From an uncultured Clostridia bacterium (lineage in GTDB: Bacteria; Bacillota; Clostridia; Christensenellales; Borkfalkiaceae), in the NCBI GenBank assembly GCA_930989535.1, contig CAKNLK010000004.1:1-64000 (forward strand): a DNA stretch of 64,000 nt, read 5' to 3'. Below are positions 6,115 through 57,173 of this stretch, one piece after another; positions within the stretch are counted from its first letter, which is position 1, and each line of letters opens with the position of its first letter. Made by a program: the position numbers and the translations under genes. The notes under the pieces are model-generated. The model made no database searches, had not been told where the DNA came from, and saw nothing but the letters and a program-made list of their open reading frames with translations.

Positions 6115-6308
6115 CTCGCGAAAATCTCGGCGAGCTGACGCCTACGATTTTCTGCGATTGTAGGGGAAACCCGAGCGGTTTTCCCCTCGCGGCGGCATAT
6201 TCAGGGGCACGCATATTGCTATAATGCCGCCGCTTCACCCTTTCTGTGAGCCGAGGTATCGGCAAATTGAGTGCAAGAGCAAAAAAGCGTGGTTTTTGCT
6301 CTTGCGAG
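6115..6308 (-). repeat. Structured RNA-like intergenic element, copy A1
   Basis: Read on the minus strand: P1 hairpin (6269-6308) with stem GCAAGAGCAAAAA and hexaloop CCACGC; P2; GGGTGAA; P3 stem GGCGGCAT/ATGCCGCC (6191-6233) closing a loop with ATATGCGTGCCCC; P4 with GGGGAAA/TTTCCCC; 3' hairpin with loop TCAGCT. The 3' hairpin begins 4 nt after the ruvX fusion stop. It is head-to-head with copy A2. Confidence 0.85.
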
Positions 6309-6324
6309 AATTTATTTATAAATC

Positions 6325-6541
6325 ACTCGCGCAAGCAAAACCGCGCTTTTGCGATAGCGCACCTGCATTTGCGCGTAAGCGCTTTCGCAGGTAAGGTGAA
6401 GCCGCGCGATTTTGTAATATGCGTGCTCTTAATTATCGCGCGGCGAGGAAAACTCCGACGGTCAGCGGCTTTGCCGCGTGCCGTGGGGTTGTCCTTAATC
6501 TCACGGAAAAAAGTTTTATCAGCTTAAAACTTTTTTCGTGA
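6325..6541 (+). repeat. Structured RNA-like intergenic element, copy A2
   Basis: P1 (6325-6362) with loop CCGCGC; P3 is a perfect 10-bp stem GCCGCGCGAT/ATCGCGCGGC (6401-6410 with 6435-6444) closing a loop with AATATGCGTGCTCTTAA; P4 as GAGGAAAAC...GTTGTCCT; 3' hairpin with an A/T-rich stem and loop TCAGCT (6500-6541). A TATAAA box (6317-6322) shared with A1 precedes P1. The element ends just before the rpsB promoter. Confidence 0.85.
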
Positions 6542-6551
6542 ATATTTTCGC

Positions 6552-6580
6552 TTGCCAAAAACAAGCAGTTGTGCTAAAAT
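6552..6580 (+). promoter_or_regulatory. rpsB promoter
   Basis: TTGCCA (6552-6557), 17-nt spacer, TAAAAT (6575-6580). It begins 11 nt after element A2 ends. The roughly 110-nt leader contains an inverted repeat (CCCGCC/GGCGGG near 6636-6660). Confidence 0.7.
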
Positions 6581-6698
6581 AGTAAGGCTATAAATTCACA
6601 CCCCGCGCGCGTCGCTTTTCCGTTCCCGCCAAAATCCCATTCGGGCGGGCAAAAAGCGGGCCAAACGCAACGGGGGAGGAAGAAACGGAGGAATTTTT

Positions 6699-7484
6699 AT
6701 GGCAGTTATCACTATGAAGCAGCTCCTCGAAGCAGGGGTGCACTTCGGTCACCAGACCAGGAAATGGAACCCGAAGATGAAAAAGTACATCTTCGCCGCC
6801 CGCAACGACATCCACATCATCGACCTGCAGCTCACCGTCGGCCTCGTCGAAAAGGCGTACAACTTCGTCGTCGACACCGTTAAAGCCGGCAAGAGCATCC
6901 TGTTCGTCGGCACCAAAAAGCAGGCGCAGGAAGCCATCAAGGAAGAGGCTGAACGCTGCGGTCAGTTCTACATCAATTCCCGCTGGCTGGGCGGCACGCT
7001 CACCAACTTCAAAACCATCCGTTCCCGCATCGACCGCCTCAACAGGCTGGAGAAGATGGAGGAGAACGGCGAATTCGACCTTCTGCCCAAAAAGGAAGTT
7101 CTGGGCCTGAAAAAGGAAATGGCGAAATTGCAGGCGAACCTCGGCGGTATCAAGGAGATGAAAACGCTCCCCGGCGCCATGTTCGTCGTCGACCCGCACA
7201 ACGAGGATATCGCCGTGCAGGAAGCGCGCAAGCTGCACATCCCCATCGTCGCCATCACCGATACCAACTGCGACCCTGACCTTATCGACTATGTAATCCC
7301 CGGCAACGACGACGCGATTCGCGCGGTCAAACTGCTCTCGGGCGTCATCGCGAACGCGGTCATCGAGGCGAACCAGGGCGAGGCGGTCAACGCGGAAATG
7401 CAGCAGGCGGCGGAGGAAGTTCCCGCCGAGTCGATTGAAGAAGTCGTAGAAGCGGCGGAAGAAGTGCCCGCCGACGCGGAGTAA
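6699..7484 (+). CDS. rpsB: 30S ribosomal protein S2
   Basis: A 261-aa S2 protein of the small subunit. Diagnostic motifs in order: [84 protein letters not shown] and the [14 protein letters not shown] loop. Length is usual for the family, with an acidic Glu/Ala-rich C-terminal tail. Start chosen by GGAGG 7 nt upstream. It forms the classic rpsB-tsf operon with the next gene, 44 nt downstream, ending in a shared terminator. Confidence 0.98.
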
Positions 7485-7528
7485 TTCCCGGCGGATTTGA
7501 GAGAAATAACACGGAGGAATTCAGATAT

Positions 7529-8188
7529 ATGGCTATCACGGCAAGTGACGTAAACGCGCTGCGCCAGAAGACGGGCGTAGGCATGATGGATTGCAAAAAG
7601 GCCCTGACCGAAGCGAACGGCGACATGGATAAGGCCGTCGAAATTCTGCGCGAAAAGGGCATGGCGACCGCCGCGAAGAAAGCGGGGCGCATCGCCGCGG
7701 AAGGCATCGTCGACAGCTACATTCACATGGGCGGCAAGGTCGGCGTTCTGGTCGAAGTCAACTGCGAGACGGACTTCGTCGCGCGCGGAGACCAGTTTAA
7801 AGAACTCGTGCACGACATCGCGCTGCAAATCGCGGCGGCGAAACCCCTGTACGTGACCAAGGAGGAAGTTCCCGCCGAGGTTTTGGAAGAGGAGAAGAAG
7901 ATTCTCAAAGTGCAGGCCATGAACGAGGGCAAACCCGAAGCCATCGCCGAAAAGATGGTCGCGGGCCGCATCAAAAAGTACTACGAGGATTTCTGCCTGC
8001 TCGAACAGCCGTTCGTGAAGGATTCGTCCAAGACCATCAACCAGCTGATCACCGAGGCGATCGCGTCTATCGGCGAAAAGATTACGGTTCGCCGCTTCGC
8101 GCGCTTCGAGATGGGCGAGGGCATCGAAAAGAAGAAGGACGACCTCGCAGAGGAAGTCGAAAAACAAGTTTCCAAGATGAAAGGTTAA
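7529..8188 (+). CDS. tsf: Elongation factor Ts
   Basis: A 219-aa guanine-nucleotide exchange factor for EF-Tu. The N-terminal UBA-like domain [24 protein letters not shown] and the core motif [29 protein letters not shown] contain the TDFV residues that contact EF-Tu. It is the short form (one core subdomain plus coiled region) typical of Bacillota, not the roughly 280-aa proteobacterial length. An AGGAATT site precedes the start. Second gene of the rpsB-tsf operon. Confidence 0.98.
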
Positions 8189-8207
8189 AACCGAAGCAAA
8201 AACGGCA

Positions 8208-8240
8208 GGGCACACAATTGAGCGTTGTGTGCCCTTTTTT
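8208..8240 (+). terminator. rpsB-tsf terminator
   Basis: Perfect 10-bp stem GGGCACACAA/TTGTGTGCCC, 7-nt loop, then TTTTTT, 19 nt after the tsf stop. Confidence 0.92.
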
Positions 8241-8397
8241 CAAAACCCGCGCGGCAGAGCGCGCGCCGCGGGCGGAAAGCTGAGGGCTCTCCGCGGTATC
8301 CAATCGGGCGCGCTTTGGCATAGTGCGGCGGGCTTTCCATAAAAATTTTCGGCGCGCCGGCAGGCTGCGCCGCATACAATAATCTCATGGGGGCGGC

Positions 8398-9117
8398 ATG
8401 GATAAACTCACACCGAAATACAAGAGAATCATTTTAAAGCTGTCGGGCGAGGCGCTCGCGGGCGATAAGGGCTTCGGCCTGGACGAAAAAATTATTGCGG
8501 GCGTGGTAGACCAGCTCGTCCGCGCGCACGAAATGGGCGTGGAAATCGGCATCGTTTTGGGCGGCGGCAACTTCTGGCGGGGGCGCCAGGGCACCAATAT
8601 GGACAGGACGACTGCCGACCATATGGGCATGCTCGCCACCGTCATCAATTCGCTCGCTATGCAGGACGCCATCGAACAGCGCGGCGTGCCCGTGCGGGTG
8701 CAGACGGCGCTGAACATGATCAGCGTCGCCGAGCCGTTCATCCTGCGCAAGGCGCTGCGGCATTTCGAACTGGGCAGGATCGTCATCTTCGCCTGCGGCA
8801 CGGGCAACCCGTACTGCTCGACGGATACGGGCGCGGCGCTTCGCGCGTGCGAAACGAACGCGGACATTCTCCTGCTCGCGAAAAACGTAGACGGCATCTA
8901 CGACAGCGATCCGAAAACCAATCCGAAAGCGAAAAAGATCGACAAAATCACGCACATGGAGGTCATCAACCGCGGCTTAAAAGCGATGGATACGACGGCA
9001 ATCACCATGTGCATGGATAACGACGTCCCCGTGCTCGCCTTTGCCCTCTCCGAAAAGGACGCCATCGTGCGCGCCATCTGCGGCGAAGAGACGGGCACCA
9101 TTATCACCACCGAGTAG
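8398..9117 (+). CDS. pyrH: UMP kinase
   Basis: A 239-aa amino-acid-kinase-fold enzyme phosphorylating UMP to UDP. Motifs: RIILKLSGEAL (phosphate loop), GIVLGGGNFWRG, TADHMGMLATVINSLAMQD, FACGTGNPYCSTDTGAALRA and LLAKNVDGIYDSDPK. Full length and intact. It sits between tsf and frr, the usual bacterial order rpsB-tsf-pyrH-frr, but is separated from both by a terminator on one side and about 630 bp of repeats on the other. A perfect 10-bp hairpin at 9191-9213 downstream may end transcription. Confidence 0.98.
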   Translation: MDKLTPKYKRIILKLSGEALAGDKGFGLDEKIIAGVVDQLVRAHEMGVEIGIVLGGGNFWRGRQGTNMDRTTADHMGMLATVINSLAMQDAIEQRGVPVRVQTALNMISVAEPFILRKALRHFELGRIVIFACGTGNPYCSTDTGAALRACETNADILLLAKNVDGIYDSDPKTNPKAKKIDKITHMEVINRGLKAMDTTAITMCMDNDVPVLAFALSEKDAIVRAICGEETGTIITTE

Positions 9118-9250
9118 TCGGTATCGAATCTGTGCAAAATAAGAGCGGTATTGCGTGTCAGGCACGCGTATGAAGGGCGGGGCGCCCCGCCTGCGCGGCT
9201 TTCAGCCGCGCAGAGTATTGCCCGCTTCCGCCTCGGCTCCGCCGCCTTGT

Positions 9251-9286
9251 TCACGAAAATCTCACTTCGCTGCGATTTTCCGTGAG
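9251..9286 (+). repeat. Orphan element-type terminal hairpin
   Basis: TCACGAAAATC.../...GATTTTCCGTGA inverted repeat, the same outer sequence as the 3' hairpins of the intergenic element family, with no recognisable element body to its left. Probably the remnant of another copy. The left part of this intergenic gap (9118-9250) otherwise holds only GC-rich hairpins. Confidence 0.6.
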
Positions 9287-9317
9287 AATATGGTTTAAGA
9301 TTTATAAAAAAATGAAA

Positions 9318-9539
9318 TGCGCGTTTGAGAACCGCGCTTCTCAAAAAGCGCCCCCAAGCAGCCGCATACATACGGCTTAAGGGAAGAGGGTGAATTTGCG
9401 CCCATAAATAATAAGAGTGCTCTGAAAAAGGGCGCAAAGAGGGAGAAAACGCCGCAGAAAACGCGAAAGCGTTTGAACGGCGGTGTCGCCCTCAAATCGG
9501 ACGAAATCATTTTGTCAGCTCAAAATGATTTCGCCGAGA
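9318..9539 (+). repeat. Structured RNA-like intergenic element, copy B1
   Basis: P1 stem TTGAGAA/TTCTCAA with loop CCGCGC (9321-9350); P2 GCCG/CGGC with loop CATACATA; GAGGGTGAAT; P3 perfect 9-bp stem TTTGCGCCC/GGGCGCAAA (9395-9403 with 9430-9438); P4 (9439-9493) nearly identical to copies D and G; 3' hairpin with loop TCAGCT in an A/T-rich stem (9497-9539). TATAAA precedes it. In tandem with B2. Confidence 0.85.
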
Positions 9540-9548
9540 GTCAATAAT

Positions 9549-9723
9549 TACTCGCGCAAGCAAAACCACGCTTTTGCGCCGCGCAACTCAATTTGCGCAT
9601 AAGCGCCTCAGCGGGTGAATGCGGTGCGCGTATAAGCGGTGGGCTTTTAAAAAGCGCGCCGCAGAGGGCAGAGCCCTTGAATCACGAAAATTTGTTTTTG
9701 CCGCTAAAAAACAAATTTTGTGA
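9549..9723 (+). repeat. Structured RNA-like intergenic element, copy B2
   Basis: P1 with loop CCACGC; P3 GCGGTGCGC/GCGCGCCGC (one G-T pair); short P4 GAGGGCAGAGCCCT; 3' hairpin 9682-9723 with a fully A/T stem around loop GCCGCT. It ends 22 nt before the frr start, directly upstream of its AGGAGG site, so it lies in the frr leader if transcription reads through. Confidence 0.82.
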
Positions 9724-9745
9724 AAATTATTAGGAGGAAAAAACC

Positions 9746-10318
9746 ATGGTTGACAACGAGAAAGTAGACGAATTGATGCTCACGATGGAGGAGAAGCTGG
9801 AAAAGACGGCGAGCGTCCTGCGCGAAGAATTTTCGAATATCCGCGCGGGCAGGGCGAATCCGCACGTTCTGGATAAAATTCAGGTGGATTATTACGGCAC
9901 CATGACGCCCGTCAACCAAGTGGGCAACATTTCCGTCGCCGACGCGAAGTGCCTTGTAATCAGCCCTTGGGACGCGAGCCTTTTAAAGGGCATCGAAAAG
10001 GCGATTTTGCAGTCGAACATCGGGCTCACGCCCACCAACGACGGCAAGGTCATCCGCCTCATCTTCCCCGATTTGACGGAGGAGCGCCGCAGGGAGCTCG
10101 CCAAACAGATTAAGGCTCTCTCCGAGGATGCGAAGGTCGCCGCGCGCAACATCCGCCGCGACGCGATGGACGCGCTCAAAAAGATGAAGAACAACAAGGA
10201 AATTTCCGAAGACGAGTGCGCGGCTCTTGAAAAGGAAGTCGAAAAGACTCTTGCCAAGAGCATGGAGCAAATCGACAAGCACACCGCCGATAAAGAAAAA
10301 GAAATCATGTCTGTGTAA
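9746..10318 (+). CDS. frr: Ribosome recycling factor
   Basis: A 190-aa protein that with EF-G splits post-termination ribosomes. Motifs: LREEFSNIRAGRANPHVLDKIQVDYYGTMTPVNQVGNIS at the N-terminus, RLIFPDLTEERRRELAKQIK in the hinge, and a C-terminal three-helix bundle ending MEQIDKHTADKEKEIM. Length matches the family. TAGGAGGAAAA precedes the ATG. It starts the frr-uppS-cdsA group; uppS follows 15 nt later. No conventional promoter is visible between element B2 and the gene. Confidence 0.97.
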   Translation: MVDNEKVDELMLTMEEKLEKTASVLREEFSNIRAGRANPHVLDKIQVDYYGTMTPVNQVGNISVADAKCLVISPWDASLLKGIEKAILQSNIGLTPTNDGKVIRLIFPDLTEERRRELAKQIKALSEDAKVAARNIRRDAMDALKKMKNNKEISEDECAALEKEVEKTLAKSMEQIDKHTADKEKEIMSV

Positions 10319-10333
10319 AGGTTTGTAGGCTGC

Positions 10334-11029
10334 ATGAAGAGGATTAAATTGCCGGCGCATATCGCCATCATCATGGACGGAAACGGCCGCTGGGCGAAGC
10401 GCCGCTTCCGCCCGCGCGCCTACGGCCATCGCATGGGCGTGCAGAACATGTTCAAAATTTGCGGGCACGCCTTCAATTTGGGCGTGCGCATCGTCACGGT
10501 TTTCGCGCTCTCGGCGGAAAATCTTTCCCGCCCCAAGGAGGAGGTCGACGAGCTGTTCGAGCTGTTCCGCTCCTACTTTTCCAAAAAGAAAGAGCGCATG
10601 TACGAGCTGAACGTCAAAATCTGCGTGCTGGGCGATATCTCCGTGCTCCCCGCCGATATTCAGGAGAGCATCGGGGAAATCGAGCGCGCCACCGCGCATC
10701 TGACGAGCGGGCTTTTGAACATCTGCGTCAACTACGGCGCGCGGCAGGAGGTCGTGCGCGCGGTCAATAAGGCGGTGGCGCTGGGCAGGTTCGTCGACGA
10801 AAACAGTTTGGAAAGCCTGTTCTATACGGGCGGGCTGCCCGATCCTGACCTCATCATCCGCACGGGCGGGGAAATTCGGCTCTCCAATTTTCTGCTGTAC
10901 CAGGCGGCCTATTCCGAGCTCTACTTTTCGGGCAAGATGTGGCCGGAGTTTTCCAAGCGCGATTTAGAGAAGGCGATTGAAAACTATTCCGCGCGCGACA
11001 GGCGCTACGGCAACGTGAGGGAGGAATGA
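10334..11029 (+). CDS. uppS: Isoprenyl transferase (undecaprenyl diphosphate synthase)
   Basis: A 231-aa cis-prenyltransferase making the C55 lipid carrier for cell-wall precursors. The N-terminal motif HIAIIMDGNGRWAKRR includes the catalytic Asp. Further motifs: GHRMGVQNM, TVFALSAENLSRP, LNICVNYGARQEVVRAV and the C-terminal PDPDLIIRTGGEIRLSNFLLYQAAYSELYF. All five conserved regions are present. cdsA starts 4 nt after its stop, so the genes are co-transcribed. Confidence 0.96.
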   Translation: MKRIKLPAHIAIIMDGNGRWAKRRFRPRAYGHRMGVQNMFKICGHAFNLGVRIVTVFALSAENLSRPKEEVDELFELFRSYFSKKKERMYELNVKICVLGDISVLPADIQESIGEIERATAHLTSGLLNICVNYGARQEVVRAVNKAVALGRFVDENSLESLFYTGGLPDPDLIIRTGGEIRLSNFLLYQAAYSELYFSGKMWPEFSKRDLEKAIENYSARDRRYGNVREE

Positions 11030-11033
11030 GACG

Positions 11034-11972
11034 ATGCTGAAGCGAATCATTTCCGGCGCCGTTTACGTCGCCGTCGTTGTCGGTTTCTTTTGCCTGCGCT
11101 TGGTCGACAAGCAGCTGTTCGGCATCCTCATCTACGCCTTTTCCCTCATAGGCACCTATGAGATGGTGCACGCCTTTTCCGCAAAGCGCGTTTTGGAGAA
11201 CGGGAAGGACGAGGTTCCCGATTTGTCTTTCGATTTTCTGCCGAATCACGGCGCCGAGCAGGGTACCGACATGGCGCTTGCACTTTCGCAGAAGATAGCC
11301 GTTTATGTATATGCGCTCCTGTTTACGCCTGCATACTATATCATCGAATGGCTGTGGCCCGGCCACGGCTACCGCGGCATGCTCATCGCAACGTTCGTGC
11401 TGGGTTTGGCCCTCCTGTGCCTGCTGGTATTCGACCACAGGAACACGAATCTGAAGAATACGGGAGCATCGATGCTGTGCGGTTTCTACCCCACGGCGAT
11501 GCTCTCGACGATGATTTTGGCAAACTCTTTCAAGGACGCGTCTGCGCTGGCGCTCCTGCTCATCTTCGTGATTTCCCCGGTCGCGGATACTTTTGCGTTT
11601 TTCGTGGGCAGTATCTTCGGCGGCAAAAAACTATGCCCGTCCATCAGCCCGAAAAAGACGATTGCGGGCGCCGTCGGCGGAGTAGTGTTCGGCACGGGCG
11701 CGAGCGTTCTGATGTACAGCCTGTACACCCTCGCCACCGGGTACGAATATGCGGGACTCGGCAATCCTTGGGTGATGTTCGTCATCGTCGGGCTCATCAC
11801 GTCTGTCATGACGGTGTTCGGCGATCTGGTGGAGAGCGTCATCAAGCGGCATTTGGGCATCAAGGACATGGGCAAGATTATGCCCGGCCACGGCGGGATA
11901 CTCGACCGCATCGACGGCACGCTGTTTGCGAGCACTTTCGTGTATATCGCGTTCGTGCTGTTCATCGTATAA
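11034..11972 (+). CDS. cdsA: Phosphatidate cytidylyltransferase
   Basis: A 312-aa integral membrane enzyme making CDP-diacylglycerol for phospholipid synthesis. About eight hydrophobic segments. The C-terminal signature is clear: SPKKTIAGAVGGVVFG, then GDLVESVIKRHLGIKDMGKIMPGHGGILDRIDG, with the Asp residues that bind metal. The order frr-uppS-cdsA-dxr-rseP is the widely conserved bacterial cluster. A strong terminator hairpin follows. Confidence 0.95.
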   Translation: MLKRIISGAVYVAVVVGFFCLRLVDKQLFGILIYAFSLIGTYEMVHAFSAKRVLENGKDEVPDLSFDFLPNHGAEQGTDMALALSQKIAVYVYALLFTPAYYIIEWLWPGHGYRGMLIATFVLGLALLCLLVFDHRNTNLKNTGASMLCGFYPTAMLSTMILANSFKDASALALLLIFVISPVADTFAFFVGSIFGGKKLCPSISPKKTIAGAVGGVVFGTGASVLMYSLYTLATGYEYAGLGNPWVMFVIVGLITSVMTVFGDLVESVIKRHLGIKDMGKIMPGHGGILDRIDGTLFASTFVYIAFVLFIV

Positions 11973-12004
11973 AACGGAATTTCCGGCGGCTTGCCGCCGC
12001 GCAA

Positions 12005-12033
12005 AAAAATGCAAGGCGCTGCCTTGCATTTTT
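12005..12033 (+). terminator. Terminator-like hairpin between cdsA and dxr
   Basis: Perfect 13-bp stem AAAAATGCAAGGC/GCCTTGCATTTTT with loop GCT, ending in TTTTT, 32 nt after cdsA. It would end or attenuate transcription inside what is usually one operon. Confidence 0.8.
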
Positions 12034-12070
12034 GCCTATGTTCGGGCATATATCTATTCGAGGGAAACGC

Positions 12071-13216: not shown

Positions 13217-13241
13217 GAAAAAGCCGAAAAGGGGAAGGCGC

Positions 13242-14390: not shown

Positions 14391-14396
14391 GGGGGG

Positions 14397-14687
14397 TCAC
14401 GAAAATCTCGGCGAGCTGTCGCCTGCAGTCTAACGCAGTCAATTTTGCGAAGCGACCGCTTGCGGGCATTTATGCAAAATTGACAAAGTTGTGCGACAGT
14501 CTGTCGCTTTTTCCGTGAGTTAAAGACAACCCGCCGTTCGGCATAAGCCGAGCGGCGGGATTTTCTCTCTTTGCGCGATTTTTAGGGGCACGCATATTAT
14601 AAAATCGCGCAAATTCACTCTTTCCGCGAAAGCCATTCGGCAAATAGGGGGAAAAAAGGCAAAAGCGTGGTTTTGCCTTTTTCGAGT
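14397..14687 (-). repeat. Structured RNA-like intergenic element, copy C
   Basis: Minus-strand copy beginning 6 nt after the rseP stop. P1 (14651-14687) has stem GAAAAAGGCAAAA and loop CCACGC. P3 is TTTGCGCGATTTT with its exact complement and a loop containing ATATGCGTGCCCC. P4 has stem CCCGCCG/CGGCGGG. The 3' hairpin is enlarged by about 75 nt: a nested stem-loop sits inside the normal TCACGAAA.../...TTTCCGTGA arms. ATTATA (14692-14697) is a minus-strand TATAAT box. Confidence 0.85.
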
Positions 14688-18934: not shown

Positions 18935-18963
18935 TTGACAATCCGCGCGATTGTTATTATAAT
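18935..18963 (+). promoter_or_regulatory. Consensus promoter of metK leader
   Basis: TTGACA (18935-18940), 17-nt spacer, TATAAT (18958-18963). Transcription would start near 18970 and run through element D into metK, giving a leader of about 400 nt. No S-box (SAM-I) riboswitch sequence was recognised in it. Confidence 0.85.
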
Positions 18964-19002
18964 AGTGTCGAATTAGAGATTTGCACAAATGCTAAAATAT
19001 TT

Positions 19003-19348
19003 ACTTGCGCGACCAAAAGCCGCGTCTTTTGGTAAGCGCACCTAATTTGCCGCATACCTACGGCTTTTGGGAAGAGGGTGAATTTTTTGCCATAGAAAAT
19101 ATTTGTGCCCCTAAACAAACGGGGCCCCCGAAAATCGCAACGCGCGCAGCGGTGTGAGATTTTTGGGGAAGAGGAGCAACAAGTGTACGAGGGCTTGGCG
19201 GCAAACAAAGCGCGCCGCCTGCCCTCCGTCGCCTTATTGCGACGATAAAGAGGGAGAAACCGCCGCAGAAAACGCGAAAGCGTTTGAACGGTGGTGTCGC
19301 CCTCAATCACGGAAATTCGCAGGCGACAGCTCGCCGAGAATTTCGTGA
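19003..19348 (+). repeat. Structured RNA-like intergenic element, copy D (in metK leader)
   Basis: P1 CCAAAAG/CTTTTGG with loop CCGCGT; P2 GCCG/CGGC; GAGGGTGAAT; P3 5' arm TTTTTTGCC and loop with TTTGTGCCCCTAAA. The P3 3' arm is disrupted by about 130 nt carrying its own hairpin (CCCCGAAAATC/GATTTTTGGGG). Then come P4, nearly identical to B1 and G, and a 3' hairpin with GC stem AGGCG/CGCC and loop ACAGCT (19307-19348). It ends 18 nt before the metK start. Confidence 0.83.
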
Positions 19349-21932: not shown

Positions 21933-22125
21933 TCACGCGTTTCTCGGCAAGCTGTTGCCTGCGAAACGCCGTGAGTTTTAGGGAAACCCGAGCGGCTTTC
22001 CCCTTATCGACGCGCTTTTTAATGGCACACTTAAAAATATGCGCGTCGATTTCACCCCTTCCGTGAGCCGAGGTATCGGCAAATAGGGGTGCGCAGCGCA
22101 GAAGTGTGATTCTGCTTGCGCGAGA
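21933..22125 (-). repeat. Structured RNA-like intergenic element, copy E
   Basis: Minus strand: P1 AGCAGAA/TTCTGCG with loop TCACAC; P2 loop with GATACCTC; GGGGTGAAA; P3 perfect 10-bp stem ATCGACGCGC/GCGCGTCGAT (22006-22015 with 22041-22050) and loop containing AAGTGTGCC; P4 GGGAAA/TTTCCC; 3' hairpin GGCAA/TTGCC around ACAGCT. The loops CACAC and GTGTG complement each other, a compensatory change against the usual CACGC/GCGTG. It starts 16 nt after the grpB stop. Confidence 0.87.
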
Positions 22126-36748: not shown

Positions 36749-36930
36749 TCTCGAAATTTGTTTTAAGCTGATAAAACAAATTTCCGAGATTTTGAGGGCT
36801 CTGCCCTTTGTGCCGCGCATTTTAGGGGCACACCAAAATACGCGCGGCACATTCACCCGCTGAGGTCGCAGGTATGCGACAAATTGAGTGCGCTTAGGCA
36901 AAAGCGTGGTTTTGCCACGCGCAGTTGAGT
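36749..36930 (-). repeat. Structured RNA-like intergenic element, copy F
   Basis: Minus strand, starting 6 nt after the tsaD stop. 3' hairpin with A/T stem and loop TCAGCT (36749-36789). P4 reduced to GAGGGCTCTGCCCTTT-type. P3 perfect 9-bp GTGCCGCGC/GCGCGGCAC (36810-36818 with 36842-36850), loop with GGTGTGCCCCTAAAA. P2 GTCGC/GCGAC. P1 (36888-36924) with loop CCACGC. TATAAT on the minus strand (about 36931-36936) lies just upstream of its 5' end. Confidence 0.86.
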
Positions 36931-36951
36931 ATTATAAATATAAAACTTATA

Positions 36952-36986
36952 CTCACGGAAAATCGCAGTGAAGCGAGATTTTCGTG
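36952..36986. repeat. Orphan element-type terminal hairpin
   Basis: Inverted repeat TCACGGAAAATCGC.../...GCGAGATTTTCGTGGA flanking copy F on its 5' side; same sequence type as the hairpin at 9251-9286. Confidence 0.6.
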
Positions 36987-46890: not shown

Positions 46891-47114
46891 ACTGCGCGAC
46901 CAAAAGCCGCGTCTTTTGGTAAGCGCACTCAATTAGCCGTATACTTGCGGCTTTCGGGAAGAGGGTGAATTTTTTGCCATTGATAATATGCGAGCCCTAA
47001 AAAAGGCAAAAAAGAGGGAGAAAACGCCGCAGAAAACGCGAGAGCGTTTGAACGGCGGTGTCGCCCTCAGCCTCACGAAATTTTCTTTTGTCTGCTCAAA
47101 AGAAAATTTGTGAA
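46891..47114 (+). repeat. Structured RNA-like intergenic element, copy G
   Basis: The clearest copy. TATAAT (46880-46885) just upstream; P1 CCAAAAG/CTTTTGG loop CCGCGT (46894-46926); P2 AGCCG/CGGCT (46935-46952); GAGGGTGAAT; P3 perfect 9-bp TTTTTTGCC/GGCAAAAAA (46970-46978 with 47005-47013), loop with AATATGCGAGCCCTAAAA; P4 47014-47068; 3' hairpin with A/T stem and loop TCTGCT (47073-47114). It ends 18 nt before the ATPase start. Confidence 0.88.
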
Positions 47115-49784: not shown

Positions 49785-49795
49785 ATACAATCGGA

Positions 49796-49837: not shown

Positions 49838-49850
49838 GATTCCCTATTTT

Positions 49851-50159: not shown

Positions 50160-50209
50160 GCGGTTCTCCGTTTGTTGCCGCCGCAGAGAATGCGGCGGTT
50201 ATTGTTTTT

Positions 50210-50329: not shown

Positions 50330-50376
50330 ACTGCATGAAAAAGTTTGTGCGCCGCAAGCGGGCGCGCGGCTTTTAA

Positions 50377-50439
50377 ATGAAAGGAGTCAAGGAGGAGGTG
50401 CCATGGGTAAAAGAGCGATCTATCCGAAGTAGCGGGTAG
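50377..50439 (+). CDS. Possible leader peptide(s) before the lipoprotein gene
   Basis: Two overlapping short frames follow the promoter: ATG at 50377 (20 aa, MKGVKEEVPWVKERSIRSSG) and ATG at 50403 with GGAGGAGG upstream (9 aa, MGKRAIYPK). The second has a far stronger SD than needed by chance. A GC hairpin follows near 50440. Either could be a translated leader; neither is recognised. Confidence 0.3.
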   Translation: MKGVKEEVPWVKERSIRSSG

Positions 50440-50500
50440 CGGCGTACGACGCCGAAAGGGGCCTATAAGGCAAAAATCTTAAAATAATAAGGAGAACAAA

Positions 50501-53473
50501 ATGCAACACAAATCGATTCTGAAAAAGTTTCTGATCGTCGTTTGTATGCTTTGCTGTGCGTTTGCGCTTATATTCGGTTTCTCCGGCTGTTCGGGTGACG
50601 CAAAGGGCATTACCTCCGCAGCGATCAACGATAAAGGCGAACTCGTCATCACCTATACAGACGGAACCACCGAAAATCTCGGCAAGGTCACGGGAGACAA
50701 GGGCGATAAAGGTGACCAGGGCGAGCAAGGCGAGCAGGGAGAACAAGGCGAACAAGGTGAAAAAGGCGAGCAGGGCGAAGCCGGTGCTCCCGGCGTCGGC
50801 ATCGAAAGCATCACCGTCGACGAAAACGGCAACCTCGTCATCAAATTGACGGACGGCAACATCTGCACGGTGGAAATTCCCTCCGTTTCCGATGATTGCG
50901 ACCATGCGAATATTTCAACCTACGTCATCGCCGAGCATACGATGAAGGACGGCGCTGTCGTAAACGGCGAATATCTCGACGTCTGCGACGATTGCGGTTG
51001 GGCGCATATTTTCAAGGAAGCGCGCCACGAATATAAAGACACGGTGACCGAAGCCACCTGCGAAGAGGCGGAGTATCACGGCAAGGTCTGCACGGTCTGC
51101 GGACATAAGACGGAGGGCGAATATGTGGGCGAGCCGCTCGGCCACGCCTGGAACGAAGGTTCCCTCGTCTCCGATACCGAGGCGAACCCCTGCGAAGAGG
51201 GCGGCATGTATATCTACCTCTGCACGCGCGAGGGCTGCAACGCTTCCAAGATGGAAGTAGAAGAGGGCAGGGGCCACACCGTTTCCAACTGGTCGGTGGC
51301 CGAGCCGACGGAAGAAACGGAAGGCTTGCTCACCGGCGAATGCACGGGCTGCCAGGAGACCATCGAAATCGTTCTTCCCAAGCTGACCGCGGAGAACGTC
51401 GCGAACGGCACCTACACGAAGACCACCAAGGTCGACGGCGGCTGCACCGAGGATTCGACGTATACATACACCTACGACCTTGCGGACGGCGAGCAGATCG
51501 AGATCGACAGCCTCGTCAATCCGGAAAACAAGACGACCGTAACCGTCAAGGGCGCGTTCAGCGATTCGTTCGACGTAACCGTTAAGGGCGGATTCCACTA
51601 CACGGTGGACATCGACGGCAACGAAGTTGCGATCGACGACACCCGGGCATACGGCATCGAAGCCTACCCCGGATTCAAGCCGCTCGGCAACAAGCAGGAT
51701 GAGTTTGCAGAAGCCGATTGCAGCACGCTGATTGAGGAAGGCGCTTATTTTGTGTGCGAACATTGCGGAGATGTAATCACGGTCAATGCTTACGGATACC
51801 ACGATTACGACGAGAGCAAGGTCGTATATCACGAAGCGACGTGCAGTACGTTTGCCTACACTTCCGTATACTGCAACACGGAGAAGAAGGAAGTCAAGCT
51901 CAGCACGGGAGCAGTGCTCAATCCTGAAAACCACGTTTGGGGCGACCCCATCGTTGCACCTTCCGATGACGGCCAGACCGCTACGGTAACTTTCGTTTGC
52001 GAATTGTGCGAGGAAGAGAAAGTCATCGAGAATGCGGAACTCGTCAGCAAGGAAGTCGAGTACGAAAACGGTTTTGCCTGCCAGGGCGCTACCATCACGA
52101 CCTATGTGTACAGGGATACCGCCACGGGCGAACAGTACACCGTCGAGCGCCGCACCGATAAGGTCGCGCACTATGTCACTTTCGACGGCAAGCGCATCGA
52201 AATCACCGATGAGATGATCGGAAACCATGTGTTCACCGATGAAGACGGTTACTTCCTGAAAAATGTCGGCAACAAGGTACCCGGCTGCTCGGAGGACGCG
52301 GAAGAATGCAAATACTTTACCTGCGAGTGCTGCGACACCTTGTACACGGTCATGTACAAACAGGCGCATGAAAAGAGCAGCGAAGTTTCTCCCGAAACCT
52401 GCACGAAAGATGCCGTTTGGCACTGCGACGTTTGCGACGAAGACTGGACGGAGGAAGGCTCCGCGCTCGGCCACGATTATGTGCTCGTCAACTTTGAGTA
52501 CGACGTTGAGGGGAATTCCTTCACTCTCTCCATCTATTGCGCAAACTGTGAAGAAATCGGTACCGAAGGCGAACCTACCGAACTGCGCGGCAAATATACC
52601 GACCTCAAAATTACGCCCGTTCAGGAGCAGAGCTGCTCGAAGGACGGCATCATCGATATCGAATACACCGACCCCTCCACGAAAGAGGTGTACAGCTTCA
52701 AGGGCGTGAACCTCGGCAAGGCGTTCCACTCGTATGACGGCATCGTCATGGACGACTCCAAGGTGTATAGCCTCACCGATTATCCGTTCCTCAAACTCAC
52801 CGGCAACAGCCCGAATAGCTGCACGGATGAGCTCGGCAATGCGTACTTCATCTGCGAACATTGCGGCCAGGTGATTTTGGTCGATGTGACCGGCCCTCAT
52901 ACCCCGGGCGATCTGATCGAGAAAGCAACCTGCGACCATCCCGCGAAATATGAGTGCTCCGAATGCGGCGAAGAATTCTATTACGGCGAACCGAGCAAGC
53001 ACACCTGGGCGGTCGAGTCTGCCGTGGCTCCCACGGAGGCGGCGGAAGGCAGCGTAACGCTGAAATGCACCGTCTGCGGCGGAACGCATACGGAAAAACT
53101 GCCCAAACTCGGCGACAAGGCGTGGGAGAGGACGATTGTAAGCTCCTCCTGCGAGAACGGCGTCGTGTACAAGTACAGCATCGGGCTGTCTTTCGAAATC
53201 ACCGTCGAGTACGGCGAGCGCGAAAGCTGCGTAATGGCTTACACGTTTACCTATTCGTTCCAGACCGCGCCTGCGGACCAGGGCCATTCGGGTGCAAAGG
53301 TTTACTACGAATGGACGTATCCCGAGGGCGAGGACGGCGTAACGTATGTGGGCTACATCTGCGAGAAATGCGGAAAGATGGTCGTCGTGTGGCGTTCGGA
53401 TAAGGATGCCGCCGAGGATAAGCCTGAAGGAGCCATCCTGCTCGACCCGGAAGTTGTGGCGGAAGCCGCATGA
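50501..53473 (+). CDS. Large lipoprotein with collagen-like segment and Cys-pair repeats
   Basis: A 990-aa surface lipoprotein: signal peptide ending GFSGCSG (lipobox). A short domain ([25 protein letters not shown]) precedes an uninterrupted Gly-X-Y stretch (residues about 65-102) beginning [12 protein letters not shown], and is echoed after it ([19 protein letters not shown]). The remaining 850 residues repeat units with paired cysteines ([29 protein letters not shown]) and GHAW/GHDY motifs, likely small metal-binding or disulfide folds. Function is unknown; adhesion is a guess. Probably XRE-controlled. Confidence 0.82.
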
Positions 53474-53532
53474 AGCTGCGGGGCAGCGAAAAAGATACCT
53501 TACATACCCTTCACTGCACTTTCATTTAGGGG

Positions 53533-53568
53533 AGGCCGTGCGGCATGCGCCGCGCGGCCTTTCCCGTT
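53533..53568 (+). terminator. Terminator of lipoprotein gene
   Basis: 12-bp stem AGGCCGTGCGGC/GCCGCGCGGCCT (one G-T pair) with a short T-rich tail, 60 nt after the stop. Confidence 0.65.
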
Positions 53569-53607
53569 TGTGCTAAGAAATCCCTGTGCAAAAAATGCGG
53601 AAAACCG

Positions 53608-53659
53608 TTGACGAACGCAAGGATTTATATTATAATAGTATCGATAAATTTTTATCGAT
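53608..53659 (+). promoter_or_regulatory. Hydrogen-sensing operon promoter with dyad
   Basis: TTGACG (53608-53613), 17 nt, TATAAT (53631-53636). The inverted repeat ATCGATAAA/TTTATCGAT (53640-53659) covers the expected transcription start, a good place for a repressor or anaerobic regulator. Confidence 0.72.
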
Positions 53660-53744
53660 TTTCGGAGTGCGTTTCGCGGTTCGCCGGCGGCGCACCCTTT
53701 GCGCGCCCTGCGGGGGAGCATTCAACATATCGGAGGGTATACAT

Positions 53745-53990
53745 ATGGTTTTGAAAGTTTGCGTGGGCAGTTCCTGCCATCTTCGCGGCTCGTACGACGT
53801 CATCGAGGAGATGAAGAGAATCATCAAAAAGTACGGCGTGGAGGACAAGGTGGATTTGCAGGCCACATTCTGCGTCGGCAACTGCCAGAACGGCGTTTCC
53901 CTGCTCGCGGACGAGGTGCTTTTACATAACGCCAACAAGGACAACTGCGAGGAACTCTTCCTCACGCAGGTGTATCCGTTCGTCAAATGA
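53745..53990 (+). CDS. Thioredoxin-like [2Fe-2S] ferredoxin (NuoE/HndA type)
   Basis: An 81-aa small ferredoxin. The cluster ligands are CVGSSC (Cx4C) near residue 6 and CVGNC (Cx3C) near residue 45, the NuoE/HndA pattern; ends as one thioredoxin-like domain without extra modules. GGAGGG precedes the ATG at 53745. It is the first gene of the unit with the HydS-like sensor, which starts 10 nt after its stop, so it probably passes electrons to or from that protein. Confidence 0.87.
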   Translation: MVLKVCVGSSCHLRGSYDVIEEMKRIIKKYGVEDKVDLQATFCVGNCQNGVSLLADEVLLHNANKDNCEELFLTQVYPFVK

Positions 53991-54000
53991 GGAGGCGCGC

Positions 54001-55704
54001 ATGATTCGCTATCTCGATTTTAAGGACGCCCGCTGCAAGGACTGCTACAAGTGCCTGCGCGAGTGCCCCGTCAAGGCGATTAAGGTGGTCGACCACCACG
54101 CGAAAATCATCGAGAGCCGCTGTATCCTGTGCGGGCACTGCACCGAGGTCTGCCCGCAGAACGCCAAGAGCGTGCACACCGAGCGGGCAGAAGTGGAGCA
54201 GCTTTTAAAGGGCGGCAACGTCGTCGCGTCCGTCGCGCCCTCCTTCGTTTCCAGCTTCGACTTGCAGGATTTCAACGTCATGAAGCTCGCCCTCGGAAGA
54301 TTGGGCTTTGCCGACGCTGAGGAGACGAGCATCGGCGCGCGCGAGGTCACCGCGCAGTATAAAAAGCTGCTGGAGGGGGGCAAGTATAAAAACTTTATCA
54401 CCTCCTGCTGCCCCGCCGTGAACACGATGATCGAGCTGTACTACCCGCAGGCGCTGCAGTACCTCGCGCCCGTCGACACCCCGATGATTGCGCACGCCAA
54501 GATGATTCGCCGCAAAAATCCGAAGGCGAAGGTCGTGTTCATCGGCCCGTGCATCGCCAAAAAGCGGGAAGCGCGCGAGAGCGGCGTGGTGGACGGCGTG
54601 CTGACCTTCGAAGACCTCGCCGCCATGTTTGAGGACAGGGGCATCGTCCTCTCGGAAATCGCCCGCCTTCCCGCGCACGCGGAGGGGGGCGCCAACCGCG
54701 CCAAATACTATCCCATCAGCCGCGGCATCATCAAGTCGTTCGAGCACTATATCGACGGCTACGAGTTCGTCGCGGTGGACGGGGCGGAAAAGTGCAAGGA
54801 GGTGCTCGCAAACATCGAGAGCCTCTCGGGCATGTTCATCGAGATGAACAGCTGCGATTCCGCCTGCGTCAACGGCCCCTGCTCGCTCGCGCTCAAGGCG
54901 GGCGCGCTCAAGGCCAACGCTGATATCCGCAAATATGTGCAGAAGGACTTGCAGGAGAACGCTTCCGCGCCGTATGAGCCGGCGCAGGGCATCGACTTTA
55001 CCTGCGTGCACGAGCGCAGGCGTACCGAGGACTTTACGCCCACCGACCGCCAGCTGAAGGAAATTTTGGCGAAGACGGGCAAATTCAAGCCCGAAGACAT
55101 GCTCAACTGCGGCGCGTGCGGCTACGATACCTGCCTGGACAAGGCGTGGGCGGTCGCCAACGGCTACGCGAACATCGAAATGTGCGTGCCGTACATGCGC
55201 GAGCGAGCCGAGAGCATGAGCTACGAAATCATTCAGACCAGCCCCAACGGCATCGTTTTGCTGGACGGCGATTTGAATATCATGGAGATCAACGGCAAGG
55301 CGAAGGAGTTGTTGGGCATCAAGGAGCACGACGTCAAGGGTAAGGGTGTCTTCCAATACTTCAACCCGACCGATTTCGTGCTCGCGCAGAGCGACAACAA
55401 AAACCTCTACAATAAAAAGGTGTTCCTCGAAAAGACGGGCTGTTACATCGAGCTGACCATCATCGTTCTGAAGGACGGCAAGAGCATGTACGCCGTCATG
55501 AAGGATATCACGCAGGAGACCAAGAGCGAGGAACAGCTGAACAAGGTCAAGCTGGAAACGCTCGCCACGACCGACGAGGTCATCAAAAAGCAGATGCGCG
55601 TCGCGCAGGAAATCGCCTCGCTTTTGGGGGAGACGACCGCCGAAACGAAGGTCGCGCTCTTAAAGCTCAAAAAGACCTTGCAAGAGGAAGAGGAGAAAAA
55701 GTAG
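54001..55704 (+). CDS. Sensory [FeFe]-hydrogenase-like protein with PAS domain (HydS)
   Basis: A 567-aa protein. Domains: two 4Fe-4S sites (CKDCYKCLREC, CILCGHCTEVC; residues 10-60); H-cluster domain with L1 TSCCPAV, L2 FIGPCIAKKRE and L3 EMNSCDSACVNGP, so all four H-cluster cysteines remain although L3 lacks the usual CxGGC glycines; an Fe-S domain (CGACGYDTC); a PAS domain (YEIIQTSPNGIVLLDGDLNIMEIN...); and a C-terminal coiled coil. This is the group C/sensory layout. It likely senses H2 or redox and signals to the phosphatase next to it. Confidence 0.9.
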   Translation: MIRYLDFKDARCKDCYKCLRECPVKAIKVVDHHAKIIESRCILCGHCTEVCPQNAKSVHTERAEVEQLLKGGNVVASVAPSFVSSFDLQDFNVMKLALGRLGFADAEETSIGAREVTAQYKKLLEGGKYKNFITSCCPAVNTMIELYYPQALQYLAPVDTPMIAHAKMIRRKNPKAKVVFIGPCIAKKREARESGVVDGVLTFEDLAAMFEDRGIVLSEIARLPAHAEGGANRAKYYPISRGIIKSFEHYIDGYEFVAVDGAEKCKEVLANIESLSGMFIEMNSCDSACVNGPCSLALKAGALKANADIRKYVQKDLQENASAPYEPAQGIDFTCVHERRRTEDFTPTDRQLKEILAKTGKFKPEDMLNCGACGYDTCLDKAWAVANGYANIEMCVPYMRERAESMSYEIIQTSPNGIVLLDGDLNIMEINGKAKELLGIKEHDVKGKGVFQYFNPTDFVLAQSDNKNLYNKKVFLEKTGCYIELTIIVLKDGKSMYAVMKDITQETKSEEQLNKVKLETLATTDEVIKKQMRVAQEIASLLGETTAETKVALLKLKKTLQEEEEKK

Positions 55705-55706
55705 CC

Positions 55707-56867
55707 ATGGCGCTCTGCTTGGAAAGCGGCTACACGTCGCTGAATAAAAAGAACGAGGAGCTGTGCGGCGACCGCGTGGAGAGCACCGTTTCGAACGGCT
55801 ACACCACGCTCGTGCTCGCCGACGGGCTGGGAAGCGGCGTCAAGGCGAACATCCTCTCCACCCTCACCTCGAAAATACTGTGCACCATGGTCTCCAACGA
55901 CATCAACATCGAGGAGTGCGTGGAGACCATCATTCAGTCGCTGCCCGTGTGCAAGGTGCGCGGCGTGGCGTATTCCACCTTCTCCGTCATCCACATGAAC
56001 GGGCAGGGAAAGGGGTACTTGTTCGAGTTCGATAACCCGCAGGCGATCTGGATTCGCGGTTGCAAGTGCCGCGATTTCCCCCGCGAGGAGATGGATATCC
56101 TCGGCAAAACGGTGTACAAGACCGCGCTCGACTTGCAGGCGGGCGACATCGTCGTCGTCATGAGCGACGGCGTCATCCACGCGGGCATCGGCATGACGAT
56201 GAACCTCGGCTGGCAGCGGCCGGAGGTCATGGAATTTCTCGACAGCAACGTAAAGCCGACGATGAGCGCGCGCGCCGTGGCGTGCCTGCTCGCGGGCGTG
56301 TGCAACGATTTGTATCTCGGCACCCCCGGCGACGATACGACGGTCGCCGCCGTCAAGGTGCGCGAACGCCTGAACGTCGATTTGATGATCGGCCCGCCCG
56401 TCGATAAAGAGAAGGATGATTTTTACATCTCCCGCTTTTTGGCGGGGGAGGGGAAAAAGGTGGTCTGCGGCGGCACTTCGTCGCAGATCGTGGCGCGGCA
56501 CCTGAAAACGACGGTGCGCGCCTCCTTCGACTTCCCCGATAAAGACGTGCCGCCCATCGGCTTTATCGACGGCATCGATCTGACGACGGAGGGGGTTCTG
56601 ACCATGCGGCGGCTTTTGGAACTGTCCGAAAAATATGTGGACGTGCACGATTTAACGCCCAAAACCTTTACGAAGAAGGACGGCGCTTCGCTTTTGGCGC
56701 AGATGCTGTTCGAGGAGGCGACGGACGTGCATTTCTATGTAGGGCAGAGCATCAACGCGGCGCATCAGGGCCTGCCCATCGACATCACGATGAAGTTGAA
56801 ACTGGTCGAAAGCCTCGCCGCGAACCTGAAAAAAATGGGTAAGAACGTTATTATAGATTACGATTAG
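55707..56867 (+). CDS. SpoIIE/PP2C-type serine phosphatase
   Basis: A 386-aa phosphatase starting 2 nt after the HydS-like stop. PP2C metal motifs: ELCGDRVESTVSNGYTTLVLADGLGSGVKAN, GDIVVVMSDGVIHAG and GDDTTVAAVKV. An additional C-terminal domain (FLAGEGKKVVCGGTSSQIVARHL...) of about 150 residues follows. Adjacent sensory hydrogenase and PP2C genes are a known pairing thought to control hydrogenase expression or activity. No partner kinase or anti-anti-sigma gene is seen here. Confidence 0.88.
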   Translation: MALCLESGYTSLNKKNEELCGDRVESTVSNGYTTLVLADGLGSGVKANILSTLTSKILCTMVSNDINIEECVETIIQSLPVCKVRGVAYSTFSVIHMNGQGKGYLFEFDNPQAIWIRGCKCRDFPREEMDILGKTVYKTALDLQAGDIVVVMSDGVIHAGIGMTMNLGWQRPEVMEFLDSNVKPTMSARAVACLLAGVCNDLYLGTPGDDTTVAAVKVRERLNVDLMIGPPVDKEKDDFYISRFLAGEGKKVVCGGTSSQIVARHLKTTVRASFDFPDKDVPPIGFIDGIDLTTEGVLTMRRLLELSEKYVDVHDLTPKTFTKKDGASLLAQMLFEEATDVHFYVGQSINAAHQGLPIDITMKLKLVESLAANLKKMGKNVIIDYD

Positions 56868-56873
56868 AAGGGG

Positions 56874-57091
56874 TCTCACTTTTTCTTTTGAGCTGACAAA
56901 AGAAAAAGTCGAGATGATGAGGCAAACCCCATTGTCCTCGCTTTGCTCGGGGCAATCGGAGTTTTCCTCTGCGGCGCGCCCTTTCAGGGCACACCATATT
57001 TACGCGCGCCGCATTCACCTTTCCTGCGAAAGCAAAAGTATATGCAAATAGGGGTGCGCTAACGCAAAAGCGTGGTTTTGCTTGCGCGAGT
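56874..57091 (-). repeat. Structured RNA-like intergenic element, copy H1
   Basis: Minus strand, beginning 6 nt after the phosphatase stop. 3' hairpin CTTTTG/CAAAAG around TCAGCT; P4 with GAGGAAAACTCC; P3 perfect 9-bp GCGGCGCGC/GCGCGCCGC (56971-56979 with 57004-57012), loop with GGTGTGCCCTGAAA; P2; P1 (57057-57090) with loop CCACGC. It splits the sensor operon from the hydrogenase gene. Confidence 0.87.
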
Positions 57092-57101
57092 AAATATTTG
57101 A

Positions 57102-57173
57102 CTCACGAAATTCTCGGCGAGCTGTCGCCTGCGAATTTCCGTGAGTTTGAGGGGAAACCCGAGCGGTTTTCTT
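57102..57173 (-). repeat. Truncated element copy H2
   Basis: Contains only the 3' hairpin (57102-57143, GC stem, loop ACAGCT) and P4 (57148-57173, matching copies A1 and E). P3, P2 and P1 are missing; 16 nt later a different palindromic repeat begins. Confidence 0.8.

Follow-up and report, generated by a model that had tools for sequence, protein, structure and literature searches.

A high-copy intergenic repeat of five covarying hairpins, probably a mobile DNA element that behaves like REP sequences

Covariation in stems that surround conserved loops is the standard sign by which new RNA classes are declared. A family of intergenic repeats of about 200 nt in the window (the whole 64-kb stretch of DNA analysed here) displays this combination, and it raises the question of whether the fold is kept at the level of RNA or of DNA. 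A sequence-only reading had named ten copies of a high-copy family sharing one fold; all ten were recovered, both by nhmmer and by a covariance model (R1), and the P3 stems quoted for copies G, B1, F, E and A2 match the sequence. Copy number proved far above what the window showed: at least 147 R1 matches are present in the 2.1-Mb genome (150 of 1,332 candidates scored), some of these being halves of insert-bearing copies. R1 matches also occur in 36 of 40 genomes of the same genus, and a handful of other genera within the order have them too. The copy at 6116 is the sole window copy in the set from which R1 was built. A chance origin of the family is excluded, since the copy at 21933, outside the building set, is matched by R1 with an E-value of 8.2e-48. 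The copies and associated features in the window are as follows (bit scores are those of R1).

6116 to 6306, forward strand: copy A1 (198.6 bits; used in building R1); its head, at 6116, lies 5 nt past the TAA of a RuvX-like gene (5055-6110).
6307 to 6327, no strand: AT-rich tail-to-tail junction of A1 and A2, 21 nt (gap measurement and sequence).
6328 to 6541, reverse strand: copy A2 (112.8 bits), tail-to-tail with A1, its head toward the rpsB promoter region.
9254 to 9300, forward strand: isolated P1-like hairpin belonging to a second repeat, "M" (regex scan and sequence), facing the tail of B1.
9318 to 9537, reverse strand: copy B1 (105.4 bits).
9553 to 9723, reverse strand: copy B2 (79.3 bits), in tandem with B1 across a 15-nt gap; its head adjoins the Shine-Dalgarno site of frr.
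14397 to 14684, forward strand: copy C, head after rseP; an insert of ~110 nt within P1, the head hairpin, restricts the R1 match to 14529-14684 (97.4 bits).
19006 to 19348, reverse strand: copy D, upstream of metK; a structured insert of roughly 125-150 nt in P3 splits the R1 match into 19006-19168 (53.1 bits) and 19199-19348 (42.7 bits).
21933 to 22122, forward strand: copy E (170.7 bits).
36749 to 36923, forward strand: copy F (118.3 bits), of the short P2 class, its head 6 nt past the TAA of tsaD.
36935 to 36984, reverse strand: M hairpin (regex scan and sequence), facing the tail of F.
46893 to 47113, reverse strand: copy G (111.6 bits), whose head meets the Shine-Dalgarno site of a gene for a calcium P-type ATPase. 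By eye, its tail abuts an intrinsic terminator-like hairpin.
56874 to 57088, forward strand: copy H1 (114.4 bits), its head 6 nt past a TAG stop.
57103 to 57179, forward strand: 3′-truncated copy comprising P1 and P2 only (61.0 bits), in tandem behind H1.

No known RNA family matched: Rfam gave 0 matches in the 64-kb window and, across 7 loci, 16 matches at E up to 5, none reaching its gathering score. A literature search over titles and abstract openings found no description of the repeat. Carriage by phage or plasmid was rejected, as viral contigs gave 0 matches to either of two exact motifs, one from P2 and one from P4, and plasmids no match to copy A1. Among the 80 matches listed for a family motif pattern, 4 were on contigs of Sphingobium or Sphingopyxis, which we took as chance.

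The repeat model comprises 190 positions, 60 pairs and 6 helices. From head (5′) to tail (3′), five hairpins (P1 to P5) stand in a row and are followed by an AT-rich tail of ~11 nt. P1 is a long stem with an AGCTGW loop and a 1-nt pyrimidine bulge on the 3′ strand, four pairs above the base; the P3 loop is built around AGGGCACAC; and P5 has a bulged purine beneath a 3-nt loop. Among 123 aligned rows, 114 have the P1 bulge, with C or T in 110, and 117 have the P5 bulge, with G or A in 105; the P2 bulge position is occupied in just 89. The bases of the P1 loop are kept while the P1 stem turns over. Averaged over all columns, conservation is just slightly higher at unpaired positions than at paired ones (mean share of the commonest base 0.779 versus 0.715). 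A pseudoknot between the loops of P3 (CACGC) and P5 (GCGTG) was considered, these being complementary in some copies and reading CACAC and GTGTG in copy E; it was dropped by eye, as other copies combine CACAC with GCGTGG.

Stems that vary with compensation are clearly seen. The 123 distinct copies comprise 7,057 stem cells, of which 95.0% are paired; shifting the partners by 1-3 columns lowers this share to 37-50%, and shuffling the columns to 68.9%. Covariation scores 0.613 (0.085-0.137 after shifting, 0.169 after shuffling), in an alignment fitted to, and thus favouring, the same structure and with a shuffle control that ignores relatedness. Both sides change in 55 of the 60 pairs. Linkage between hairpin modules, after correction, is 0.05-0.45 in 91 own-genome copies. 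In a comparison by eye of the copies downstream of pyrH in the own genome and a relative (G008), the P3 and P5 stems have been replaced and neighbouring parts are alike. Whole hairpins thus reassort between copies.

Selection on RNA leaves a second trace, in that G-U pairs are tolerated and A-C pairs are not. In the well-aligned stems, for which the pairs left out were picked after the per-pair table was known, we counted 34 G-U and 44 A-C among 5,700 cells (p = 0.31), whereas tRNA stems of the own genome gave 44 G-U and 0 A-C among 672. The ratio is 22:26 in the own genome, 8:11 in the same genus and 4:7 in another genus. The balance does depend on the choice of pairs kept. All 60 pairs give 144:102, which differs from tRNA (p = 1e-9); leaving out the weak outer P4 helix gives 111:57 (p = 4e-5), the version least favourable to a DNA reading and still unlike tRNA (p = 2e-7); leaving out pair P1 14-41 as well gives 69:56 (p = 0.28); and pairs that are at least 90% Watson-Crick give 41:44. 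At P1 14-41, all 42 of the 42 G-U cells have a C directly beside the U, so the G could pair with that C instead.

A structured RNA class, transcribed as a 3′ untranslated region past stop codons or as a 5′ leader in the other sense and selected for its RNA fold, for example in protecting or processing mRNA ends, is improbable on this evidence. Such a class would fit the strong covariation, the empty Rfam search and the G-U surplus seen with all pairs or with all but outer P4, and the position of P1, which in 51 of the 62 heads that face a stop codon lies 1-10 nt past it, would be a useful place for an mRNA-end hairpin. Against it stand the well-aligned counts set beside those of tRNA, a ratio that does not differ between copies lying sense (13:17) and antisense (8:6, a small group) to the adjoining gene, and the patchy occupancy of orthologous sites. 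If RNA were under selection on both strands, G-U and A-C could be suppressed alike. The proposal that conserved loops with changing stems mark a selected RNA is therefore unsupported, as the well-aligned stems lack the G-U excess over A-C that tRNA displays. Covariation and a lack of Rfam hits, put forward as proof of a new RNA class, were both found; as a pair they cannot separate a DNA hairpin from an RNA. On the same ground, the missing RNA-like G-U excess in those stems, we read the five-hairpin repeat as more likely a DNA-level element.

At the DNA level, the fold might be a relic. Repeats that spread once could now owe their perfect stems to template-switch copying of one arm from the other, with no selection on the fold today. 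Near equality of G-U and A-C would be expected, as would paired changes without intermediates, which are seen chiefly in P1: 33 of 37 one-pair allele steps there are double Watson-Crick changes, while the other hairpins are less complete (P2 3/10, P3 19/34, P4 12/17, P5 9/18). Template switching is reported to create and maintain hairpins in a single event (PMC8794818). Arm correction of this kind should, however, erase bulges, and those of P1 and P5 persist; the P1 loop bases stay during stem turnover, copies vary between relatives, and heads keep a preferred place. We consider such neutral palindromes quite improbable.

The copies behave as mobile DNA, as seen in site polymorphism between relatives, in rules of orientation and in the reassortment of hairpins. 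A copy follows pyrH in 3 of 30 pyrH loci (the own genome, G008 and G011), and in the other 27 the pyrH-frr spacing is 18-111 nt. Neighbouring copies, at most 60 nt apart, form tail-to-tail (12) or tandem (15) pairs and never head-to-head ones (0), with a tail-to-tail junction of 18-23 nt in 9 of 11 own-genome pairs. Of 42 single copies, 31 have the head at a gene boundary (3.5 expected; 0 of 20,000 simulations reach 31) and 1 has the tail there. Gene ends for these distances were set by a small score of codon usage, trained on ten genes of the window, rather than by annotation. The head usually sits against a stop codon or just upstream of a start codon; of the 91 heads to which a gene was assigned, 29 face a gene start. 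Simple deletion bias was rejected as the cause of this anchoring, as stop-facing tails are not pulled in. The tail is TATAAT-like, and a role as promoter was set aside, no -35 being seen by eye.

Inspection by eye revealed no constant target. The terminal inverted repeats and target-site duplications that mark a classical MITE were not seen by eye in the flanks of 53 own copies, in 25 further copies or in six filled/empty alignments, whose sites have diverged. The filled and empty sites set side by side were too diverged for a clean junction, and the alignment of the window copy at 6113 with locus L052 was too poor for use. A joined-flank search returned 13 junction-spanning matches, some of which are paralogous copies and not empty sites (L009 with L022).

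As to an enzyme, counts of Y1 transposase (PF01797) are slightly inverse to element counts (Spearman -0.31, p = 0.05). Ten genomes with at least 25 element matches lack PF01797 and seven with at most 5 matches have it, these being incomplete metagenome-assembled genomes, and 0 of 20 fetched Y1 loci contain a repeat copy. A Y1 transposase as partner is thus unsupported. Reverse transcription was likewise rejected, although fragments starting at hairpin borders resembled 5′ truncation: the own genome, 92% complete, has no reverse transcriptase (PF00078, RVT_1), and PF00078 occurs in 4 of 40 genomes of the genus. Neither gene family follows the repeat across genomes.

The placement past stop codons might instead mark dispersed single-strand recombination sites of the integron attC kind, one head-anchored site per gene, with crossovers at the AT-rich tails that shuffle genes or join tails. 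DNA-level conservation of a structure with bulges and the near-fixed length of the tail-to-tail junctions agree with this. Gene order does not: the own genome and G039 retain rpsB-tsf-pyrH-frr despite copies within or before it, and in G008 and G011 the order is intact up to pyrH, the fetched stretch there ending short of frr. The heads that face gene starts and the presence of five hairpins, where attC is a single-hairpin site, also speak against such sites, which we regard as highly improbable.

Taken together, the family is probably a new, non-autonomous, high-copy mobile repeat of DNA hairpins, REP-like in its behaviour. An enzyme that mobilises or recombines DNA may recognise its hairpins in their folded, single-stranded form, which would account for the conserved loops and the strand-specific bulges. 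Stem arms would stay complementary through replication template switching between them together with the selection imposed by that recognition, and copies could trade hairpins when they recombine at the conserved loops and junctions. A more specific version, tentative and rather unlikely in its full detail, treats the hairpins as exchangeable cassettes: loop and bulge would be kept while the stem is replaced as a unit, template switching would write the complementarity, the head would join first at a coding boundary (a stop codon or Shine-Dalgarno site), and the AT-rich tails would offer an attachment place for further copies. If true, the family would be a single-strand DNA element guided by gene boundaries, without a known enzyme.

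Covariation is very strong here, yet the G-U versus A-C count points to a DNA-level cause, and the same count could screen other repeat-derived "RNA" candidates. With more than 100 copies in the own genome and others in dozens of related genomes, the family is a natural experiment on how arms stay complementary and on how a mobile repeat settles at gene ends without a sequence common to its sites.

Among known systems, integron attC sites are single-hairpin sites of 57-141 nt that conserve fold rather than sequence, carry extrahelical bases and lie past stop codons. The repeat resembles them in these last three respects and differs in its size, its number of hairpins, its occurrence in both orientations to genes, the apparent lack of a cassette array and the intact gene order at the locus compared (own genome and G039). 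Intergenic stem-loops of Borrelia plasmids, as outlined in PMC2674063, share the many compensatory changes and the location near gene ends; G-U pairs were taken there as a sign of RNA function, whereas our well-aligned stems have no G-U excess over A-C. REP/BIME repeats act as folded single-stranded DNA recognised strand-specifically by TnpA-REP (RAYT), and, like the present family, are described as high-copy intergenic hairpins with a stem bulge or mismatch, in paired or tandem arrays and often right past coding regions (PMC8266576, PMC3733652). A REP, however, is a single palindrome of 20-40 bp with GTAG or CGTC at one end, and its Y1 (RAYT) gene is flanked by or accompanies copies; this repeat has five hairpins over ~200 nt, is absent from 20 of 20 fetched Y1 loci and, by eye, has no constant GTAG or CGTC, its heads being mostly RGT-TCAC or RGC-TCGC and its tails AGTRATTATT (copy listings). 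BOX elements of Streptococcus pneumoniae, as summarized in PMC3049150, are likewise modular, interspersed, predicted to form stem-loops and housed in a genome of roughly 2 Mb. BOX varies in the number of boxB modules, whereas this repeat has many interchangeable stem alleles per hairpin and, unlike BOX as described, places its heads at gene boundaries and has had its pairing tested as DNA-level.

The main element runs, from head to tail, through hairpins P1, P2 and P3, the motif TTCACC, hairpins P4 and P5, and an AT-rich tail. All ten copies named in a sequence-only reading are present in the window. A covariance model of the element (R1; 190 positions, 60 pairs), derived from 17 copies in its own genome, gave at least 147 matches in that 2.12-Mb assembly (150 of 1,332 candidates scored), some of which are halves of insert-split copies. 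With the DNA of copy A1 alone as query, matches were found in 33 of 40 genus genomes and in 17 of 121 genomes of a family sample. At E 1e-8, R1 was positive in 36 of the 40 genus genomes (65 candidates scored per genome); in an order sample it was positive in 22 of 297 genomes and 7 of 125 genera. The P2 motif occurs in at least 89 stretches, mostly, among the matches listed, from uncultured Clostridia and Candidatus Borkfalkia.

Small irregularities recur within the stems. P1 carries an unpaired base on its 3' side, four pairs above the foot, in 114 of 123 alignment rows (C or T in 110). A bulge column is occupied in 117 of 123 rows in P5 (G or A in 105) and in 89 of 123 in P2 (by T, C or A), and P2 falls into several length classes. 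In some copies P3 is interrupted by a structured insert, about 125-150 nt long and containing hairpins of its own, at the same place and identical or nearly so across several copies (besides the window, in sequence blocks L018, L022, L023, L028, L038, L040 and L041). A second repeat, M, comprises a P1-like hairpin followed by about GTCTGCGGTTTTATATTT (also at L009 905, L014 1518, L030 882 and others); its upstream part (CCGCCTTG) is likewise recurrent. The M hairpin lies opposite the tails of several main-element copies (15 regex hits, 55 own-genome sources), and in these hits M runs on, by eye, in the direction of the main element's tail side. The following features lie in the window:

5055-6110, 351-aa ORF containing a RuvX domain (residues 75-205), with an acidic C-terminal part and a Cys/His-rich end, the latter recurrent in relatives (by eye)
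6116..6306 (+), main-element copy A1
9254-9300 and 36935-36984, repeat M
18935-18963, sigma-70-like promoter (TTGACA, 17 nt, TATAAT; by eye)
18935-19348, promoter and insert-bearing copy, the latter filling the gap to metK
19120-19250, P3 insert
51743-51788 / 52841-52886 and 54511-54570 / 58760-58819, similar stretch pairs from a repeat finder, both probably paralogous coding sequence
57189-57345, CATTTCGAGCGGAGG...GTCGAGAAATC stretches, resembling another interspersed palindromic repeat (by eye)

Since the copy fills the stretch between promoter and metK, the metK mRNA may begin with the element's antisense strand.

Covariation was assessed on 124 rows (123 distinct). Both sides have changed at 55 of the 60 pairs (1,766 cells), and the covariation score was 0.613, compared with 0.085-0.137 when partners were slid by 1-3 columns and 0.169 when shuffled. 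The alignment was fitted to the same structure, which biases it in favour of covariation, but we judged the gap too large to be accounted for in this way. The covariation noted in the sequence-only reading is genuine.

That reading had also concluded that the element is a selected RNA. When the C of a G-C pair mutates to T the outcome is G-U, and the same transition on the opposite strand yields A-C; RNA keeps G-U and rejects A-C, whereas in DNA hairpins both are mismatches. Our main count omitted 11 of the 60 pairs (five in the weak outer helix of P4 and six judged poorly aligned), picked after the per-pair table had been inspected, together with six helix-rows less than 70% paired. The remaining 5,700 cells were 97.5% Watson-Crick, with 34 G-U, 44 A-C and 66 other. 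The control, limited to one family, tRNA (32 genes from 30 loci, fetched for 41 own-genome matches), gave 628 Watson-Crick, 44 G-U and no A-C in 672 cells. On these counts, selection as RNA is unsupported.

The ratio of G-U to A-C varies with the choice of pairs. It is 144:102 over all 60 pairs and 111:57 without outer P4 (p = 4e-5), a result that counts against the DNA reading. Removing the P1 pair at columns 14-41 as well gives 69:56 (p = 0.28); there, all 42 G-U cells have a C immediately beside the U, so that the G could pair with C one column off. Pairs at least 90% Watson-Crick give 41:44, those in which transversion mismatches do not exceed 5% give 110:87 (p = 0.12), and one count per helix allele, without outer P4 and 14-41, 58:46 (p = 0.28). 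At the P5 pair 330-368, G-U occurs in 22 rows; the following pair lacks a partner in 13 of them and the one below is T-T in 14, which makes this an internal loop and not a stem. Even the least favourable count is unlike tRNA (p = 2e-7); over all cells the G-U share is 2.0%, compared with 6.5% in tRNA. Divided by sense relative to the adjoining gene, the ratio is 13:17 for stop-side heads (57 copies), 8:6 for start-side heads (26 copies; Fisher p = 0.52 between the two) and 13:21 for the 41 remaining copies.

When the nearest alleles of P1 differ at a single pair, the step is a double Watson-Crick change in 33 of 37 cases; the corresponding figures are 3/10 in P2, 19/34 in P3, 12/17 in P4 and 9/18 in P5. 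Template switching is reported to make such double changes in one event (PMC8794818). Hairpins reassort between copies: across the modules of 91 own-genome copies, corrected linkage spans 0.05-0.45 and is weakest between P1 and P5. After pyrH, the stretches of the own genome and relative G008, compared by eye, differ in the P3 and P5 stems and are alike in P4, P2 and loops.

Placement relative to genes, whose ends were taken from a purpose-made codon score, not annotation, differs between head and tail. Alignment copies at most 60 nt apart are tail-to-tail (12) or tandem (15), never head-to-head, and 9 of 11 own-genome tail-to-tail gaps measure 18-23 nt. A gene stop within 250 nt is faced by 71 of 122 head flanks, 51 of them within 10 nt (35 of these at 4-6), compared with 1 of 19 stop-facing tails within 10 nt. 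With copy-adjoining sides excluded, 51/62 stop-facing heads lie within 10 nt of the stop and 21/29 start-facing heads within 22 nt of the start codon; for tails within 40 nt the figures are 0/7 and 2/31, and for 16 heads and 46 tails the nearest 250 nt hold no gene. Of the single copies, 42 have genes on both sides; in these the head meets a boundary (at most 10 nt to a stop or 22 nt to a start codon) 31 times and the tail once. Uniform placement would put 3.5 heads there, and 0 of 20,000 simulations reached 31. Short gene gaps partially explain the paired copies but not the 42 singles. The stops next to heads include TAA, TGA and TAG, so a single DNA motif cannot explain head placement.

Sites are polymorphic. 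The tsf locus was compared in 30 genomes, the own one and 29 from the 39 relatives; copies lie 3' of pyrH in three (own, G008 and G011, the sequence examined in the last two stopping short of frr); the remaining 27 have pyrH-frr spacings of 18-111 nt. Copies upstream of rpsB occur in the own genome and G039. Joined-flank searches with 175 blocks gave 13 junction-spanning matches, some paralogous; six were aligned, with filled and empty sites too diverged for exact junctions. Where genome G021 carries the element, the relative of block L091 has about 15 nt separating a Shine-Dalgarno site from a stop. Identical or near-identical tandem copies (L092 59-246 and 269-456; L080 745-1513; genomes G014 and G115) have periods of about 210 and 185 nt and are a sign of recent array growth.

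Candidate partner enzymes were sought in the genus. The Y1 transposase (PF01797) matched in 23 of 40 genomes (22 above the cut-off); its count does not track copy number (Spearman -0.31, p = 0.05; at most 65 scored matches per genome), and none of 20 fetched Y1 loci contains a main-element copy. Reverse transcriptase (PF00078) matched in 4 of 40 genomes and not in the own genome. Assembly completeness of 66-96% weakens any one absence; the ten absences of Y1 from element-rich genomes are less affected.

The family is real and unusual, and is best accounted for as a mobile DNA-hairpin repeat whose head is placed at gene boundaries. The element was nowhere described in the titles and abstract openings searched, which mostly did not extend to subscription journals. 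It behaves as REP repeats do, but is not a single 20-40 bp palindrome, shows by eye no constant GTAG/CGTC tag, and has no copy at the 20 Y1 loci fetched; like BOX elements, it is modular and interspersed.
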